Positions 20,811-30,280 of a stretch of DNA of 64,000 bases are shown piece by piece. The translations under genes were made by a program, and so were the position numbers. The DNA is from Chloroflexaceae bacterium. GTDB lineage: Bacteria; Chloroflexota; Chloroflexia; Chloroflexales; Chloroflexaceae. The stretch covers positions 62,001-126,000 of the forward strand of contig JANWYD010000009.1 in assembly GCA_025057155.1 (NCBI GenBank). The letters are read 5' to 3'. The notes beneath the pieces were generated by a model that worked only from the letters and a program-made list of their open reading frames with translations, was not told the DNA's origin and did no database searches. Numbering within the stretch: the first letter of the stretch is position 1; each line of letters opens with the position of its first letter.

Positions 20811-22754
20811 ATGCTTGAACCAGGCACAATACTTCAAAATCGCTACCAGATCGTCGCGCCTATCGGGAAAGGCGGTATGGGCGCCGTATATCGCGCGCGC
20901 GATCTGCGGCTACGCACCGATGTAGCGCTGAAGGAGACCCTGTTCGCCGACCCCGCTTACCGCCGCGCCTTTCAGCAGGAGGCGCAGATCCTGGCGCGTC
21001 TGCGCCATCAGGCTCTGCCGCGGGTGCTCGACCACTTCAGTGAGGGCCAGGGCCAGTTTCTAGTTATGGAATACATCCCCGGCGAGGATCTGGGCAGCCA
21101 GCTTGCTCGTCTCGGCTCCCGCTTCGCCACCCCCCAGGCAATGCCCACCATTCTACGCTGGGCCGACCAGCTCCTCGACGCCCTGCATTACCTGCACACG
21201 CGGCCGGTTCCCGTCTACCATCGCGATATCAAGCCCAAGAACCTGAAGCTTACCGCGACCTACGAGATTATTCTGCTCGACTTCGGGCTGGCCCGCGGCG
21301 GTGTGACGGTGGCGTATGATCTGAATCAGACCACTGCCTCGCAGGCGCAGGCCCGCAAGATCTACGGTTTTACGCCGCCATACGCTCCTCTGGAGCAGAT
21401 GCGCGATGGCGAACCGGATGCCCGCAGTGACCTGTACGCCCTGGCCGCGACCGTCTACCACCTGCTGACGGCAACAATGCCGGTTGATGCCATGTCGCGT
21501 ATGGCAAAACTGGCCAGCGGACAGCCCGATCCGCTGCGCCCGATCCGTGAACTGGCGCCCCACGTTCCTGAGGGTATCGCTGAGCTGCTGCAACAAGCCT
21601 TGAGCGTGACCATTGACGAGCGCCCGAAGACGGCCAGAGAGATGCGCGAGACCCTGCTACGCCTGCGTGGCGGCCTTCCTCCGGCTCGCGCCGCTGCGAC
21701 CGGCCAACCTGCCGACCGGCCTGCGCCGCAGGCCCGCGCGGTCCCTGATCAGACGCCAGCGTCAGAACCGCGCCCACCAGTTGAGGGCCTGAGCACCAGC
21801 GCGATGAGCCACCCCGGCGCAATCACTCCCAATATCGCCGGTCCATCCACGCAGTTGACAGCGAAGCCTATAGGAACCCTGCTGCGCATGCTCACAACCG
21901 GCAGCCCCATCCGCTCTCTTGATTTCAGTCCCAGCGGCGCGCTGCTGGGCGCCGGGTACGACGACCACACGGCCGGTCTCTGGCGTCTCGCCGATTTTAC
22001 TCACCTGGCAACGCTGAAAGGGCATACCAGCGGAATCCGTTGTTTGCGTTTCGCCCCGACGGGTGGCATCCTTGCCACGGCCAGCGACGATGAGACGGTG
22101 CGGCTCTGGCAGGTCGCCGACGGCGCGTTTCTGAGGCTCCTGCGCGTGCCGGGTTGCCCGATTGAGAGCATCGCCTTCAGCCCCGATGGGCGCTATCTTG
22201 CCGTGGGAGGGTGGGGCGCCGCGATTACTCTCTGCGAGGTGGAGAAGGATCGTATCACGATTATCAACAGCCTGTCGGCGCCCTTCGTCCACAGCCTGGC
22301 CTTCAGTCCCGACAATCGCCTGATCGCTGCCGGCGCCTATGACGGCTCGGTCTACCTCTGGCAACTTGACGATGCGCACCCGGTGGGCGTGCTGAGCGGA
22401 TCAGCCACCTTTATCAATAGCGTCACCTTCAGTCCCGACGGAACCTGGCTCGTCGCCAGCAGCGGCAACCAGGCTCGCGTCTGGCGGCTGGACGACCAGA
22501 AGCCGATTGAGAGCCTGTCGGGGCACCAGGGGCCGGTCCACGCGATAGCCTTTAGCCCCGATGGGCGTTTCCTTGCCACCGCCAGCGAAGATCGGCTGAT
22601 TCGCCTGTGGCGCGCCAGTGACTGGACCGGCCTGCCTGCTACGCTGGAACACCGTGCAGGCGTAGCCAGTCTCGCCTACAGTCCCAACGGGTCAATAATC
22701 GCCAGTGGCGCCCGTGATGGGCGGATCTACCTCTGGAAGATTTCGGGGACGTAA
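20811..22754 (+). CDS. Ser/Thr protein kinase with C-terminal WD40 propeller
   Basis: A 647-residue protein. The kinase domain (about 10-270) has the glycine loop GKGGMGAVY, VALKE lysine, catalytic HRDIKPKN and DFGLARGG. A Pro/Ala-rich linker follows (about 285-345) without an obvious membrane helix. WD40 repeats then cover about 355-647, with recurring FSPDGRFLATAS and RLWR-type blades. It is probably a cytosolic signalling kinase whose propeller senses or binds partners; targets are unknown. A plausible TATACT lies near 20745. It is transcribed convergently with the glycosyltransferase. Confidence 0.88.
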   Translation: MLEPGTILQNRYQIVAPIGKGGMGAVYRARDLRLRTDVALKETLFADPAYRRAFQQEAQILARLRHQALPRVLDHFSEGQGQFLVMEYIPGEDLGSQLARLGSRFATPQAMPTILRWADQLLDALHYLHTRPVPVYHRDIKPKNLKLTATYEIILLDFGLARGGVTVAYDLNQTTASQAQARKIYGFTPPYAPLEQMRDGEPDARSDLYALAATVYHLLTATMPVDAMSRMAKLASGQPDPLRPIRELAPHVPEGIAELLQQALSVTIDERPKTAREMRETLLRLRGGLPPARAAATGQPADRPAPQARAVPDQTPASEPRPPVEGLSTSAMSHPGAITPNIAGPSTQLTAKPIGTLLRMLTTGSPIRSLDFSPSGALLGAGYDDHTAGLWRLADFTHLATLKGHTSGIRCLRFAPTGGILATASDDETVRLWQVADGAFLRLLRVPGCPIESIAFSPDGRYLAVGGWGAAITLCEVEKDRITIINSLSAPFVHSLAFSPDNRLIAAGAYDGSVYLWQLDDAHPVGVLSGSATFINSVTFSPDGTWLVASSGNQARVWRLDDQKPIESLSGHQGPVHAIAFSPDGRFLATASEDRLIRLWRASDWTGLPATLEHRAGVASLAYSPNGSIIASGARDGRIYLWKISGT

Positions 22755-24262: not shown

Positions 24263-26203
24263 CTACGCTTCACTGCTGGCTTCGAGCACGGCCTGGGCGA
24301 TCTGCTCGCCGCGACCCTGCGGCAGGTACACGTAACGGCCTCCGAGCCAGGCCGCCAGTTGCTGGGCCTCGCCGCGGGAGATAAAGCTCCGCTGGGTGTC
24401 AATCACCACGGCGCCGATGCCAGCGGCGCGAATGCGGGCGCTGAGGGTCTGCACCTCGGCGCGGGCCGCCTCCAGGCGCTGCTGCTTGTCGTGGGCCGGG
24501 TTGGGACGCAGGGGGACGTTGGGGCGCCCATCGGTGATCAGCACCAGGGTGGTGCGGTGGATGCCGCGAGCGCGGGCCTGTTCGGCCACCTGGTAGGCTG
24601 CCAGCAGCGCGGCGGCCAGGGGGGTGCCGCCGCCGGTGGGCAACACATCGAGGGCGCGCTTGGCCAGTTCCACGCTCTGCGAGGGCGGCAGGAGCAGTTC
24701 AGCCGTCTCGCCGCGGAAGGCCAGCAGGGCCACCTGGTCACGATGCACATAGGCCTGCTGGAGCAGCGTGTTCACCGCGCCCTTGGCCTGGCGCATGCGG
24801 TGGAGAGCCATCGAGCCGCTGGCGTCAACCACGAAGCAGAAGAGCGTTCCGGCCTTGCTGCGGTACTTCTTGATATGCAGATCATCGGCCTTGAGGCGAA
24901 TGTGGCCGTGGTGGCGCGGGGCCTCGCGGCGGCGCACCGGCTGCCATGGCGCGGCGGCGCGCAGGGTCGCCACCACATCCAGCCGGCCCTGGGAGGGCAG
25001 GCCGGGAATGGAACGGATGTGCCGTCCGCGCGTGCCGGAGGTGCTGCCCCGCGAGCCGCTGCGCCCGCTCCGGCGCACGGTAAAGGGCGTCTCCAGCACG
25101 TCAGGGGGCACCTCGGCGTCCAGCGCGGAGAGAATGAGATCCTCGACTGTTAGATCCTCAGGAGGCGTTGGCGGTTGCTCGCTCTCGTCCTCATCGTCGT
25201 TACGCTGTTGCTCATCGGGAGGCGGTTGCTCGGGCTGCGGCGGCGGGGGCTGCTCCGGCTGTGGCGGCTGCTCGGCGGCCTGGGGAACGCGGGTAGCGCG
25301 GGGCAACAGCACGAAGCGCACCGCCCGTTCCAGATCCTCCTCACCCACCTCATCGCGCCCGGCGAGAGCCGCGGAGGCCAGGGCCGCGCGCACGGCGAAA
25401 ATATCGGCCCGGTGCCCCTCCACCCCCAGCGCCAGCGCCGCCTGGCTCAACTGCGCCATCTGAGCCTCGCTGATGCGCACCTGCGGCAGGGCCTCGCGGG
25501 CAGCCATGATCATCGCATGGAGCATGGCATCCTCATCGGCCCATTCCTCGGCCACCCCTTCGGCATTCTCCGCGCCGGGTTTGCGCCGCGCCGCCGCGAC
25601 CAGCCGCGCCCGATCCACGAGCAGGTTGCGGCGCACCACCTCAGCGCGGGCATGGCCGGGCGCCTGCGACACGGGGGCGACAATCAGGCCGACGCGGTCG
25701 AGCAGATGGCGGCGCGGCGGCCCCTCGGCGGGGTCGTAGGTGGCGATCAGCGCGAAGCGGGCCGGTTCCACGAGGCTGAGACCGTCCCGCTCCACGCGCA
25801 CCACGCCGCTGTCGAGGGCCGCCAGCAGATGGTTGACGGTGCTATCGTCGAGCAGATTGACCCCGTCAGCGTACAGCAAGCCCCCGTGAGCGCGAGCCAG
25901 CAAGCCGCTGCGATGGACGCGCTCACCCCGCGCCAGGGTCGCCTCCAGGTCAAGACCGCCGAGGAGACGGTCCTCGGTGACGCCGACGGGCAACTCGACC
26001 AGCCCGCCGTGGCCCGGCGCCGCTGCGTCGGCGCCGCCGGCGAGCAGGCGGGCGAAGGCGCGCACCAGGGTGCTCTTGCCCGTACCCACACCAGCGGCGA
26101 TCACCACCCCGCCGAGACCTGGGTCAACCGCGAGCAGCAAGAGCGCCTGGCGCCCCGCGTCCAGCCCGACCAGGGCGGAGAAGGGCAGGGTCGCCGTGGT
26201 CAC
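24263..26203 (-). CDS. bchD: Magnesium chelatase subunit D (BchD)
   Basis: A 646-residue protein with an N-terminal AAA-like domain, a Pro/Glu/Asp-rich linker (about 300-345) and a C-terminal von Willebrand A domain with an intact MIDAS motif DASGS near residue 457. With BchI and BchH it inserts Mg2+ into protoporphyrin IX. Walker A is intact here (GVGTGKST, 38-45), but the Walker B acidic pair is degraded: YADGVNLLDD has Gly114 where BchI has the catalytic Glu. Its start overlaps the bchI stop by 4 nt, so the two are coupled. Last gene of the bch operon. Confidence 0.95.
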   Translation of the reverse strand: MTTATLPFSALVGLDAGRQALLLLAVDPGLGGVVIAAGVGTGKSTLVRAFARLLAGGADAAAPGHGGLVELPVGVTEDRLLGGLDLEATLARGERVHRSGLLARAHGGLLYADGVNLLDDSTVNHLLAALDSGVVRVERDGLSLVEPARFALIATYDPAEGPPRRHLLDRVGLIVAPVSQAPGHARAEVVRRNLLVDRARLVAAARRKPGAENAEGVAEEWADEDAMLHAMIMAAREALPQVRISEAQMAQLSQAALALGVEGHRADIFAVRAALASAALAGRDEVGEEDLERAVRFVLLPRATRVPQAAEQPPQPEQPPPPQPEQPPPDEQQRNDDEDESEQPPTPPEDLTVEDLILSALDAEVPPDVLETPFTVRRSGRSGSRGSTSGTRGRHIRSIPGLPSQGRLDVVATLRAAAPWQPVRRREAPRHHGHIRLKADDLHIKKYRSKAGTLFCFVVDASGSMALHRMRQAKGAVNTLLQQAYVHRDQVALLAFRGETAELLLPPSQSVELAKRALDVLPTGGGTPLAAALLAAYQVAEQARARGIHRTTLVLITDGRPNVPLRPNPAHDKQQRLEAARAEVQTLSARIRAAGIGAVVIDTQRSFISRGEAQQLAAWLGGRYVYLPQGRGEQIAQAVLEASSEA

Positions 26204-27306
26204 GCCAGCACCTCTTCCACGGCCCGCTCGATGCGCGTGGCGTCGTCCTGGGTTTCGAGGGGGTCCTTGCGCAGGCGATGGCGCAGGGCAAGAATGGCGA
26301 TGCGGCGCACATCCTCGATGCGCACTTCATTGCGCCCCTCGAAGGCGGCCAGGGCCGTGGCGGCGCGGCTGAGGGTCAGCTCGCCGCGGTGCCCGTCCAC
26401 CTCCAGCTTGACGCACAACTCGGCGATCTTGTAGAGCACCGGATCGGGGAGCTGCACCTCGGGAAGCCGTTTCTGGGCCTGCTTGATCTTGCGCTGGAGG
26501 CGCGCGGTCTCCTTCTCCCAGGCGGCGGCAAAGGCGAAGGGATCGGCATCGTAGGCGCGGCGGCGCTTGACGATCTCTACTCGCTCTTCCACATTGGTAA
26601 TTGTAGTGATGCGGGCGTGCAGGCCAAAGCGGTCGAGCAACTGGGGACGCAAATCGCCCTCTTCGGGGTTGCCGGAGCCAACCAGCACGAATCGGGCCGG
26701 GTGGCGGACGGAGATCCCTTCGCGTTCGACCACATTCACGCCACTGGCGGCCACATCGAGGAGCACATCAACCAGATGGTCCTCCAGCAAGTTCACCTCA
26801 TCAATGTACAGGAAGCCGCGATTGGCGCGCGCGAGGAGGCCGGGGGCAAACGCCTGCACCCCCTGGGTCAGGGCGCGCTCGATATCGAGGGTGCCGCAGA
26901 CACGGTCCTCAGTGGCGCCGAGGGGCAGATCGACCACGGGTACGGGAATGGTTATGGCCCGCGGCTTACGCGGCTGCGCCTTGCCATTAGGCGGCTGCTG
27001 GAGCCGGGTATGTTCGCAGAAGCCATCGGCCTCGGGGGCGCAGGAGTAGGGGCAACCGGCAACCGCCTTGATCGGCGGGAGCATGGCGGCGAGGGCGCGC
27101 ACGGCGGTTGACTTGGCCGTACCGCGATGGCCCATCACCATAACGCCGCCGATGGTCGGGTTCACGACACAGAGGATCAAGCCCAGCTTCAACTCGGCCT
27201 GACCGACAATCGCAACAAACGGATATGGCGGCACGGGCCCGTGGGGAGCGGGTGTAGCGCCATTCTCGGCGGGACGGGGCGCGAGCGTCTCTGTCTCTGT
27301 TGCCAT
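26200..27306 (-). CDS. bchI: Magnesium chelatase ATPase subunit I (BchI)
   Basis: A 368-residue AAA+ ATPase: Walker A GHRGTAKST (59-67), the CPYSCAPEADGFCEHT insertion, Walker B LYIDEVNLLED, and the sensor/arginine-finger region GSGNPEEGDLRPQLLDRFG. It forms the ATP-hydrolysing ring with BchD that powers Mg insertion by BchH. A Pro/Ala-rich N-terminal extension of about 25 residues precedes the core. It overlaps bchD by 4 nt. Confidence 0.96.
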   Translation of the reverse strand: MATETETLAPRPAENGATPAPHGPVPPYPFVAIVGQAELKLGLILCVVNPTIGGVMVMGHRGTAKSTAVRALAAMLPPIKAVAGCPYSCAPEADGFCEHTRLQQPPNGKAQPRKPRAITIPVPVVDLPLGATEDRVCGTLDIERALTQGVQAFAPGLLARANRGFLYIDEVNLLEDHLVDVLLDVAASGVNVVEREGISVRHPARFVLVGSGNPEEGDLRPQLLDRFGLHARITTITNVEERVEIVKRRRAYDADPFAFAAAWEKETARLQRKIKQAQKRLPEVQLPDPVLYKIAELCVKLEVDGHRGELTLSRAATALAAFEGRNEVRIEDVRRIAILALRHRLRKDPLETQDDATRIERAVEEVLA

Positions 27307-27467
27307 AGGGGCGCGACTTTCGGTATTAGAAAAAAGCAGGAAAGCCTACCAGGGAGGGTGCTTCCCTCCGGTGGGCCCTCCCAGCATAGCTCGTCGCGCA
27401 GGGCGGCGGGCCAGTATACGGGCGTCAGACGCCGGTCACGAAACGCATCAAGCGCTGCGCCGGCGCC

Positions 27468-27671
27468 TCAGCGAACTCTAGGTTCCTTGGGCGTCGAACC
27501 GACGGTCGGCTGCCGCTGCCCATTCGGCAGGCGACGGGCAAAGGCGGTAATATTCGTCCAGAGGAATGACAGGCCCAATGCGAGCACAGTGATGATCAGA
27601 CAGGCCCAACATACCAGCGCCGGGGAAAGCGGCCCGATCATTTGCGTAGCCTGAGCGTAGGTCTCGGTCAT
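27468..27671 (-). CDS. 67-aa single-span membrane protein in the bch operon (unknown)
   Basis: A short polar N-terminus (MTETYAQATQ), one hydrophobic helix (about residues 17-41) and a basic C-terminal tail ending TPKEPRVR. It does not resemble the light-harvesting alpha/beta peptides of Chloroflexus or Roseiflexus as I know them. ATG 27671 follows AGGAG at a good distance. It lies between orf55 and bchI on the same strand and is preceded by a stem-loop (27697-27737), so it is likely transcribed with the pigment genes. The function is unknown. Confidence 0.65.
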   Translation of the reverse strand: MTETYAQATQMIGPLSPALVCWACLIITVLALGLSFLWTNITAFARRLPNGQRQPTVGSTPKEPRVR

Positions 27672-27696
27672 GGCGCTGCTCCTATCTAGCCTCCAG

Positions 27697-27737
27697 AACT
27701 TGCGCGAAGAAAGACGCCATATCACTTCGCGCAACTT
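27697..27737 (-). promoter_or_regulatory. Stem-loop in the leader of the 67-aa gene
   Basis: AACTTGCGCGAAG (27697-27709) pairs with CTTCGCGCAACTT (27725-27737) over 12 of 13 positions, with a 15-nt loop. On the minus strand it lies about 26 nt upstream of the ATG. There is no U-tract, so an RNA-processing or regulatory hairpin is more likely than a terminator. Confidence 0.5.
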
Positions 27738-27799
27738 TTTGAACCTCTATGAACTTTCCTCCTGTATTGTACCACACATCCGCTCAGGGGTAACAACGT

Positions 27800-27967
27800 T
27801 TAGCGATGCCAGAAGGGATTCACCTGTTCAGGCGTCTCCGCGCCGACCTCCGCAAAGCTGCGGCACCAGCGCCAGAAGCACGCTGCGAACCACCAGCGCA
27901 GGCGCAGATGCCAGGGCGCCAGACGATACTCGGTCAGGGCGGTTGTGGAGGGTGTTCGCAGCTTCAT
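27800..27967 (-). CDS. 55-aa Trp/Arg-rich small protein in the bch operon (unknown)
   Basis: Reading from ATG 27967 to TAA 27800 gives 55 residues. The middle is strongly amphipathic and Trp/Arg/Cys-rich (APWHLRLRWWFAACFWRWC), and the tail ends VNPFWHR. GAGGTG lies 6 nt before the ATG, and the gene follows bchX by 64 nt on the same strand. A short clean reading frame with a good ribosome site inside a pigment operon argues for a real gene; no family is recognised. It could be a peripheral membrane or chromophore-associated peptide, but that is inference. Confidence 0.6.
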   Translation of the reverse strand: MKLRTPSTTALTEYRLAPWHLRLRWWFAACFWRWCRSFAEVGAETPEQVNPFWHR

Positions 27968-28031
27968 CGCAGCACCTCACTGCCTGAGTGGAGCAACGGT
28001 CACCGTGGAAGGCCCGGGTCCGAAACATATC

Positions 28032-29261
28032 TTACCGATACACCGGACTGCCGGGCCGTCGCAGGTCAACATAGCGAAACGGCTCGCCAGACTTCTGCAG
28101 AGCGGCCAGAATGGCCACTTTACTATCCAGTTCGCGCTCATCACCGAAGCAGATGGTCGTATGGCCATCAACGGTGAGGGTCAGGCCCTTGCGGGGATCC
28201 CGGCTGGCCTCGGTAACATACATGCCCAGATCCTTGAGCAGGCGGTTAACCACCCGGCGGGCGGCCGGATCGAGGTCGGGTTGATCGCCCACGGCGCGGC
28301 TGATCAACTCCAGTTCGATTACGGGCACGCTCGGAGCGGGCTGGCCGCCAAACAACTCGTCGGCGCAGGCGCCTTCGGGAACGATATCGGGTTCATCGGC
28401 GCCGAAGACGCTGAGGAACTCACGGTACTCAAGGGGGCGCACAGCGTCCATCTCCACCGGCGGGGTGGCGCGGGCGACGATCTGGCGCGCCAGGCGGTCG
28501 AAGATGGCGTCGAAGCGCGGCTCGCTGAGGGCCAGCTTGCATGCGTCGGCCAGTTCGCGCACGGTGCGGTCGAGGGGGATGCTGGCCAGCACCGGCAGGT
28601 TGATCCGTTCGGCGAAGCGGGCGGCCACACCGGAGCCATCGTCGCGGTTGACCACCAGGCCAATCAGGCGCGTGCGGCCGCCCATGCTGGCAAAGTACTT
28701 GGCGGCGCTGGCGATGTTATTGGCCGCGTAGAGGCTCTGGCGGTCATTCCCGCAGAGGATGATCACCTCCTCGGCCAGCGAGCGCGAGAGGGGCGTGGCG
28801 AAGCCCCCGCAGACCACATCGCCGAGAAAATCCATGACCACATAGTCGAGGGCCCAGCGGCTGAGGCCCAGCTTTTCAAGCAGATCGAAGCCGAAGGTGA
28901 TCCCACGGCCGCCGCAGCCGCGCCCCACCTCCGGGCCGCCGATTTCGCAGCCATACACGGTGGCCGCCCCGCCCATGATCCGGGTCTTAAAGATCACATG
29001 CTGCGCCTGGAGTTCTTCTTCCCGTCCGGCTTCTTTGAAGGCGCGCCACACATCGCCCAGGGTGGGCAGGCTCACGCCGCCGAACAGCGCATTACAACTA
29101 TCGTGCTTGGGATCGCACCCCAGTTGCAACACGCGATAGCCGAGCAGGGCGAGCTTGCTCACCAGGTTGGTGGTGAAGAACGACTTCCCCATGCCCCCTT
29201 TGCCATAGATCGCCAGCATGCGCGCGGCGCCAGGCGCGGCGGGCTTACGATTCGCGGGCAT
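28032..29261 (-). CDS. bchX: Chlorophyllide a reductase iron protein BchX with extra C-terminal FtsQ-like module
   Basis: A 409-residue NifH-like protein. The P-loop is GKGGMGKS (20-27); the cluster-ligand segments are GRGCGGRGI and DFLGDVVCGGFA; the signature GGPEVGRGCGG distinguishes BchX from BchL. It donates electrons to BchYZ to reduce the C7-C8 double bond of chlorophyllide a. It is much longer than the roughly 330 residues typical of purple-bacterial BchX. Residues of about 330-409 resemble the C-terminal half of FtsQ (DPRKGLTL, CFGDERELDSKVAIL, YVDLRRPGSPVYR). ATG 29261 has GAGG upstream. bchC lies 23 nt upstream. Confidence 0.9.
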   Translation of the reverse strand: MPANRKPAAPGAARMLAIYGKGGMGKSFFTTNLVSKLALLGYRVLQLGCDPKHDSCNALFGGVSLPTLGDVWRAFKEAGREEELQAQHVIFKTRIMGGAATVYGCEIGGPEVGRGCGGRGITFGFDLLEKLGLSRWALDYVVMDFLGDVVCGGFATPLSRSLAEEVIILCGNDRQSLYAANNIASAAKYFASMGGRTRLIGLVVNRDDGSGVAARFAERINLPVLASIPLDRTVRELADACKLALSEPRFDAIFDRLARQIVARATPPVEMDAVRPLEYREFLSVFGADEPDIVPEGACADELFGGQPAPSVPVIELELISRAVGDQPDLDPAARRVVNRLLKDLGMYVTEASRDPRKGLTLTVDGHTTICFGDERELDSKVAILAALQKSGEPFRYVDLRRPGSPVYR

Positions 29262-29284
29262 CGCAACCTCGCTTCCCCACGTCC

Positions 29285-30280
29285 TCACGACTTGACGACG
29301 CCATTGCCGTCGTGCGGCCACTCAATCACCACCTTGAGGCAACTCGGATCCTCCAGCGCCAGGCGATAGGCGGCCTGGATGCGTTCGAGGGGCACCCGGT
29401 GGGTCAGCAGGCCGCGCACATCAAGCTCGCCCGAGGCGATCATATCGCGCACGCGGGGCAGGTCGCCATCGGGGCCGAAGACCCACTCGCGGGCCACCAG
29501 CACCTGAGCCTCACGCATAAAGACCGGAGCGTAGGGAAAATCCACGTGGTCATAGTAGCCCAGCAGCAACACCCGGCCGTGGTTGGCCAGCAGGGGCAGC
29601 GCCCCGGAGAGAGCCGCCATGGAACCGGTGGCTTCGATCAGCACATTGATATTGGCCTCGGGAATGGCCTCATCAAGCGATTCGCGGGTCACATCAATAA
29701 TCTGATCGGCCTGCGAAACCTGAAGCCGGACGGCCACGCGGTCGGCGACGGCCACGAACTGCGCCCCCCGGATCCTGGCGATGCGGGCGGCGAGCTGGCC
29801 GACGATGCCCTGGCCCAGAACGAGGACGCGATCCGTGCGATGGATCGAGGCTACATTGACGCCATGGAGCGCCGAAGCCGCCAGGGCCAGAACCACCCCG
29901 GTGGGCGGATCAATCGAGCCAAGAGGAACGACACGTTCGGCCTCGGCGCTGATATATTCGCTCTGGCCGCCCCAGGCCGGATTCACCCCACGGAAGCAAC
30001 GGGCGCCGCCAACGTACACCCACTGGCCAAGCAGGGACTGCGGCGCCCTGGCCCCCACCTGGACCACCTTTCCCACCGTCTCATAACCCGGCACCACGGG
30101 GAAGAGCAACGCCGGATGGGGCATGCGTCCATCGAGGAGCATCCGTTCCGTGCCGGCGCTGATCGAGGTATAGGCGGTGCGGATCAACACATCGCCGGCC
30201 CGCGGTTCCAGGACCTGCACGGTGCGCAATTCAACCGTGTTACGGCGCGGGATCACCACGGCGCGTGACTTGATCGGCAT
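29285..30280 (-). CDS. bchC: Bacteriochlorophyllide dehydrogenase BchC
   Basis: A 331-residue zinc-alcohol-dehydrogenase-fold (MDR) protein. TSISAGTERMLLDGRMPHP and VVPGYETVGKV match BchC, and LVLGQGIVGQLAARIARI is the NAD-binding site. It oxidises the 3-(1-hydroxyethyl) group made by BchF to the 3-acetyl group of bacteriochlorophyllide a. The pairing with bchX 23 nt downstream is the common bchC-bchX order, but bchY and bchZ do not follow. Confidence 0.93.
   Translation of the reverse strand: MPIKSRAVVIPRRNTVELRTVQVLEPRAGDVLIRTAYTSISAGTERMLLDGRMPHPALLFPVVPGYETVGKVVQVGARAPQSLLGQWVYVGGARCFRGVNPAWGGQSEYISAEAERVVPLGSIDPPTGVVLALAASALHGVNVASIHRTDRVLVLGQGIVGQLAARIARIRGAQFVAVADRVAVRLQVSQADQIIDVTRESLDEAIPEANINVLIEATGSMAALSGALPLLANHGRVLLLGYYDHVDFPYAPVFMREAQVLVAREWVFGPDGDLPRVRDMIASGELDVRGLLTHRVPLERIQAAYRLALEDPSCLKVVIEWPHDGNGVVKS

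Follow-up and report, generated by a model that had tools for sequence, protein, structure and literature searches.

Gene content and organization of the locus

The window, a 64,000 nt stretch of a Chloroflexaceae contig (JANWYD010000009.1), carries a cluster of bacteriochlorophyll (bch) synthesis genes in which two small CDS are found between bchX and bchI (Table 1). Upstream of both lie bchX, bchC, bchF and a PucC-family gene, and downstream are bchI and bchD. The names of the neighboring genes were confirmed with NCBIfam/Pfam, the score of bchC being slightly below the curated cut-off (284 vs 291 bits), while bchY sits on a different contig of the same genome. The original prediction was of two unnamed small proteins on the operon strand, each with its own ribosome-binding site, and this is borne out by the open reading frames and the AGGAG and GAGGTG motifs that precede them. 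Many relatives have purine-rich stretches at the position of the GAGGTG. The 67-aa frame could also be read as an 88-aa form beginning at a TTG codon, but this is improbable because relatives start at the equivalent ATG behind the invariant AGGAG. At 27335-27350, past the end of the 67-aa gene and ahead of bchI, a sequence resembles a terminator, but no better than expected by chance. On the opposite strand of the window (20811-22754), a 647-aa frame resembles, by eye, a Ser/Thr protein kinase followed by WD40 repeats.

Table 1. Positions of genes and leader features at the bchX-bchI locus (window coordinates).
Feature	Position	Strand	Remarks
bchI	26200..27306	-	TIGR02030, E=1.5e-182
Gene for 67-aa single-span membrane protein	27468..27671	-	ATG start
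Leader between the 55-aa and 67-aa genes	27672..27799	-	In relatives, site of a PF02596 (DUF169) gene or of what is left of its 3' end
AGGAG ribosome-binding site of 67-aa gene	27679..27683	-	Invariant in leader alignment of 23 loci
Extended -10 promoter-like element of 67-aa gene, TGTGGTACAAT	27766..27776	-	94 nt before ATG
Gene for 55-aa Trp/Arg-rich protein	27800..27967	-	ATG start; directly downstream of bchX
GAGGTG ribosome-binding site of 55-aa gene	27973..27978	-	Read from sequence
bchX	28032..29321	-	TIGR02016, E=1e-138

Conservation and selection of the two small genes

A single-sequence search retrieved the 67-aa frame from 39 of 41 Chloroflexaceae genomes and a profile search from 40, with one copy in each. 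The 55-aa frame occurs in 25 of the 41, and G005 has a divergent, syntenic copy in addition (E=0.0029, 2825 frames compared). Wherever contigs show it, the order bchX - (55 aa) - (67 aa) - bchI - bchD is preserved. The proposed link of these genes to the photosynthetic apparatus holds up. Within the genus of the window, pairwise dN/dS ranged over 0.09-0.42 (67-aa gene) and 0.08-0.36 (55-aa gene); such values are noisy on short frames, but four genera agree. Synteny and dN/dS had been put forward as checks, and a lack of conservation in relatives with the same bch order as the refuting outcome; both frames were found to be kept in such relatives. Taken together, the conserved frames, conserved order and low dN/dS argue that the two ORFs are real, translated genes under purifying selection. 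Outside the Chloroflexales, homologues were not detected among 400 sampled genomes of the phylum (15 candidates scored per genome).

Two local variations were seen. At one locus (L011, genome G012), an in-frame TAA within the match to the 67-aa query is the ordinary stop codon of a slightly shorter orthologue, and in G022 and G023 (L070 and L071) frames resembling, by eye, a molybdate-type ABC transporter binding protein and permease lie between bchX and the 67-aa gene.

The leader of the 67-aa gene

Of 39 Chloroflexaceae loci, 38 carry the motif TGTGGTANAAT 86-119 nt ahead of the start codon of the 67-aa gene (25 exact, 13 with one mismatch), and the 25 exact copies compare with about 0.02 expected from shuffles. 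When the leaders of 23 loci are aligned, it is the sole conserved block apart from the ribosome-binding site. The 67-aa gene is thus preceded by what appears, from sequence conservation, to be an extended -10 promoter-like element. It was recognized through the comparison of relatives; a consensus promoter scan returned nothing at the 67-aa gene, and its sites were no more numerous than in shuffled sequence. Across the genome to which the window belongs, the pattern occurs 13 times, compared to none for the reversed pattern. Copies also precede frames that, by eye, are like recN, gyrB, typA, prs and ribosomal protein genes. As these look like housekeeping genes, a photosynthesis regulon marked by the motif was no longer considered.

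In Chloroflexus and Roseiflexaceae, a PF02596 (DUF169) gene is located between bchX and the gene corresponding to the 67-aa CDS (the h/Z-like gene, see below). The Oscillochloris leader retains a 3' remnant of it (E 1e-26 to 1e-7), and the leaders of the window's genus show a weak resemblance (E 0.007 to 0.25). With the Roseiflexus DUF169 protein as query, the Chloroflexus gene was found at ~72% identity, and none was found in the genome of the window, in a search that had no control. Loci with either the DUF169 gene in this position or a remnant of it include L058, L061, L062 and L087.

The 67-aa protein is an orthologue of a photosystem chain

The alignment, hydropathy and structural model of the 67-aa protein agree on one transmembrane helix followed by an Arg-rich C-terminal tail. 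The model is a single, confident long helix (residues 15-45, core pLDDT >90), and the best 19-residue mean hydropathy is 0.76-0.81. Pfam and NCBIfam searches gave nothing useful; a DMAC1_Dmo2 match in one of the 29 family members (E=0.00036) was taken as a chance match between helices. Neither this protein nor the 55-aa protein matched a Pfam antenna family, and an identity as antenna peptides was rejected for both, in line with the original prediction.

The closest structural counterpart is chain N of PDB entry 8ydm, from Chloroflexus aurantiacus, which was deposited as a "hypothetical protein". It matched the 67-aa protein with a phmmer E=2.6e-22 over 60 aligned residues, and the family profile with E=3.5e-35. 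A genome that we take to be C. aurantiacus J-10-fl (G007) carries a 64-aa orthologue that does not differ from chain N at any of the 63 residues shown, and the M chain of 8ydm is the PufM of this genome over all 307 residues. We presume that the entry holds the RC-LH structure published by Huang et al. 2025 (doi 10.1111/jipb.13853). Chain N comes from another genus, is ~64% identical to the 67-aa protein and has a deposited name that gives no function, but its gene occupies the equal place in the bch cluster. By sequence and gene position, we identify the 67-aa protein as the Chloroflexaceae orthologue of 8ydm chain N. Its gene lies downstream of bchX in a genome that carries type II pufL and pufM. 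When the order was searched, PufL/M were recovered from 40 of 41 Chloroflexaceae and from none of nine f2 genomes, where the 67-aa protein is missing as well.

Relationship to Roseiflexus protein h/Z

The reaction center-antenna complex (RC-LH) of Roseiflexus castenholzii contains a small subunit, named protein Z in PMC10516601 and protein h in PMC10432797. It is a single helix situated between RC-M and an LH alpha subunit, with its N-terminus in the periplasm and its C-terminus in the cytoplasm (PMC10432797; PMC10516601). A 63-aa ORF of G064 matched, with E=1.1e-34, chain Z in six entries (8hju, 8iug and 8j5o among them). The gene order in this genome is bchF-bchC-bchX-DUF169-63-aa ORF-bchY (bchY assigned by eye, DUF169 by Pfam), and we take it to be that of Roseiflexus sp. 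RS-1. The two small genes had been suggested to occupy the place where bchY/bchZ often follow bchX, and the Roseiflexus order bchX-DUF169-protein Z-bchY agrees with this.

Like the 67-aa protein, h/Z (8hju, 8hjv, 8iug, 8iun, 8j5o, 8j5p) is a single helix with the same charge-based orientation, encoded in the same place downstream of bchX, and the two are homologous at the level of profiles. They differ in being remote in sequence, with low similarity outside the helix; in the next gene, which is bchY in Roseiflexaceae and bchI here; and in the leader, as the h/Z genes of Roseiflexaceae lack the conserved TGTGGTANAAT promoter. It could then be argued that chain N, the orthologue of the 67-aa protein, and Roseiflexus Z are unrelated helices of separate origin whose genes came to lie at one site in the cluster, particularly as their direct similarity is short (36-38 columns) and falls within the membrane helix, where chance similarity is common. 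This explanation is quite improbable given the results of several comparisons. An hhalign comparison of the 67-aa family with the Roseiflexaceae Z family returned a probability of 90 (E=1.6e-6), and the profile alignment score of 33.9 was reached by none of 150 column shuffles (mean 11.5, maximum 25.2) that kept the membrane segment as a membrane segment, nor by a reversed-profile control (11.9). In addition, a sequence from G020, encoded directly behind bchX, matches both profiles and so bridges the two families, and the N-like and Z genes share their position after bchX and after DUF169. Two further Roseiflexaceae genomes (G078 and G081) gave weak hits to the 67-aa profile, both just downstream of bchX. 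Gene position, profile comparison and the bridging sequence thus all identify the 67-aa protein as a homologue of Roseiflexus protein h/Z. This ties a chain that is "hypothetical" in the PDB to a described subunit, and with that link a single small subunit would be traceable through most phototrophic Chloroflexales.

A possible counterpart of the H subunit helix

The membrane helix of the H subunit is thought to hold the reaction center and antenna together, and to our knowledge the phototrophs considered here have no classical H subunit. In purple bacterial reaction centers this subunit (PuhA) contributes one membrane helix beside M, and the same role is proposed for the 67-aa protein, which is unlike PuhA in having no cytoplasmic domain and no sequence match, and is not a member of that family. 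The PuhA domain (PF03967, PRCH) did not match any of the 29 members of the 67-aa family at E up to 5. It was also not found in 82 genomes, but as no control genome matched in that search, this is no proof of absence. The h/Z helix beside subunit M has been proposed as a stand-in for H. For R. castenholzii, JBC 2023 (PMC10432797) places it exactly at the site of the H-subunit helix, although the overlay of the two helices is disputed, being supported by PMC10432797 and not by PMC10516601.

We consider it very probable that the type II RC/LH complex has the 67-aa protein as one of its structural subunits; the 55-aa protein would be a separate, non-essential accessory. The presence of the 67-aa protein in the complex of this particular organism, as well as its contacts, orientation and function, we infer. 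It would span the membrane once, with the N-terminus outside and the Arg-rich C-terminus in the cytoplasm, as the positive-inside rule predicts, and its helix would pack onto subunit M as well as onto the antenna's inner face. In this position one helix may perform part of the work of the purple bacterial H subunit, clamping the reaction center and antenna together. Between the photosystem role and the regulation of pigment synthesis that had been entertained for this gene, the former is retained and the latter is not, since the protein corresponds to a structural subunit in solved RC/LH structures.

In R. sphaeroides, a photochemically active reaction center was obtained from just the pufL and pufM genes of Chloroflexota bacterium L.E.CH.39_1 (PMC12650329); the genome of this bacterium belongs to the genus of the window. 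The 67-aa protein would then not be strictly needed for L/M assembly, although an H subunit of the host may have contributed. Rather than being essential to L/M assembly, the protein is better suited to stabilizing the complex or keeping the antenna in place. How reaction centers work without an H subunit becomes testable through one short gene, and its location illustrates that photosystem subunits can hide unnamed within pigment-synthesis clusters.

The 55-aa protein

The 55-aa protein has no relative in the PDB, Pfam or NCBIfam; a PDB match to an immune receptor (E=0.04) was judged to be a chance result based on Trp spacing. On sequence comparison it constitutes its own conserved, uncharacterized family within Chloroflexaceae, and presents a concrete puzzle in a well-studied pathway. 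The structural model, of moderate confidence (mean pLDDT 69.8), has one helix at residues 19-41. The best 19-residue mean hydropathy is 0.18-0.39, compared to 0.76-0.81 for the 67-aa protein, which is too low for a membrane span and makes a helix lying on the membrane the likeliest form. Several phototrophs keep the 67-aa protein but lack the 55-aa protein, the gap after bchX being too short for its gene, and its loss in several lineages indicates that it is not essential to phototrophy.

What the helix does can be addressed only tentatively. One suggestion, which we hold to be possible yet somewhat doubtful, is that this Trp/Arg-rich helix sits on the cytoplasmic surface of the membrane and there assists either the bchX product or some photosynthetic complex close by. 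Alternatively, it could serve chlorophyllide a reductase (BchX/BchY/BchZ) as an accessory, for instance a membrane tether. The 55-aa gene, where present, is always the first after bchX, and the short spacing between them suggests joint translation, but bchX works without this protein in Roseiflexaceae and several Chloroflexaceae, and we rate the tether or a similar accessory as a fair distance short of probable. The shared cluster and very aromatic helix might instead point to a loosely bound or detergent-labile RC-LH subunit; being lost on purification, it would be expected to have no relative in the PDB, as was found. The same hydropathy values, which leave it without a true membrane span, and the existence of several phototrophs with the 67-aa protein but without this one make such a subunit unlikely. 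Lastly, since the frame is small and absent from databases, it could be untranslated and its conservation due to a regulatory RNA. There is very little chance of this, as four genera show fewer nonsynonymous than synonymous changes per site in the frame, and a search of Rfam gave no match.

The broadest interpretation combines the two genes: the 55-aa protein would be a new kind of small accessory, restricted to Chloroflexaceae, that takes part in bacteriochlorophyll synthesis or in assembling the photosystem and acts as a Trp/Arg-rich helix at the membrane surface, and one conserved helix would replace H throughout the Chloroflexales. As a whole, we regard this as plausible but slightly less than an even prospect.

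Both small genes are also carried by JAAUTF010000559.1 (L203 / L056), a contig with a Chloroflexaceae bch cluster from a MAG titled Candidatus Gracilibacteria; probably the title is wrong or the bin is mixed.
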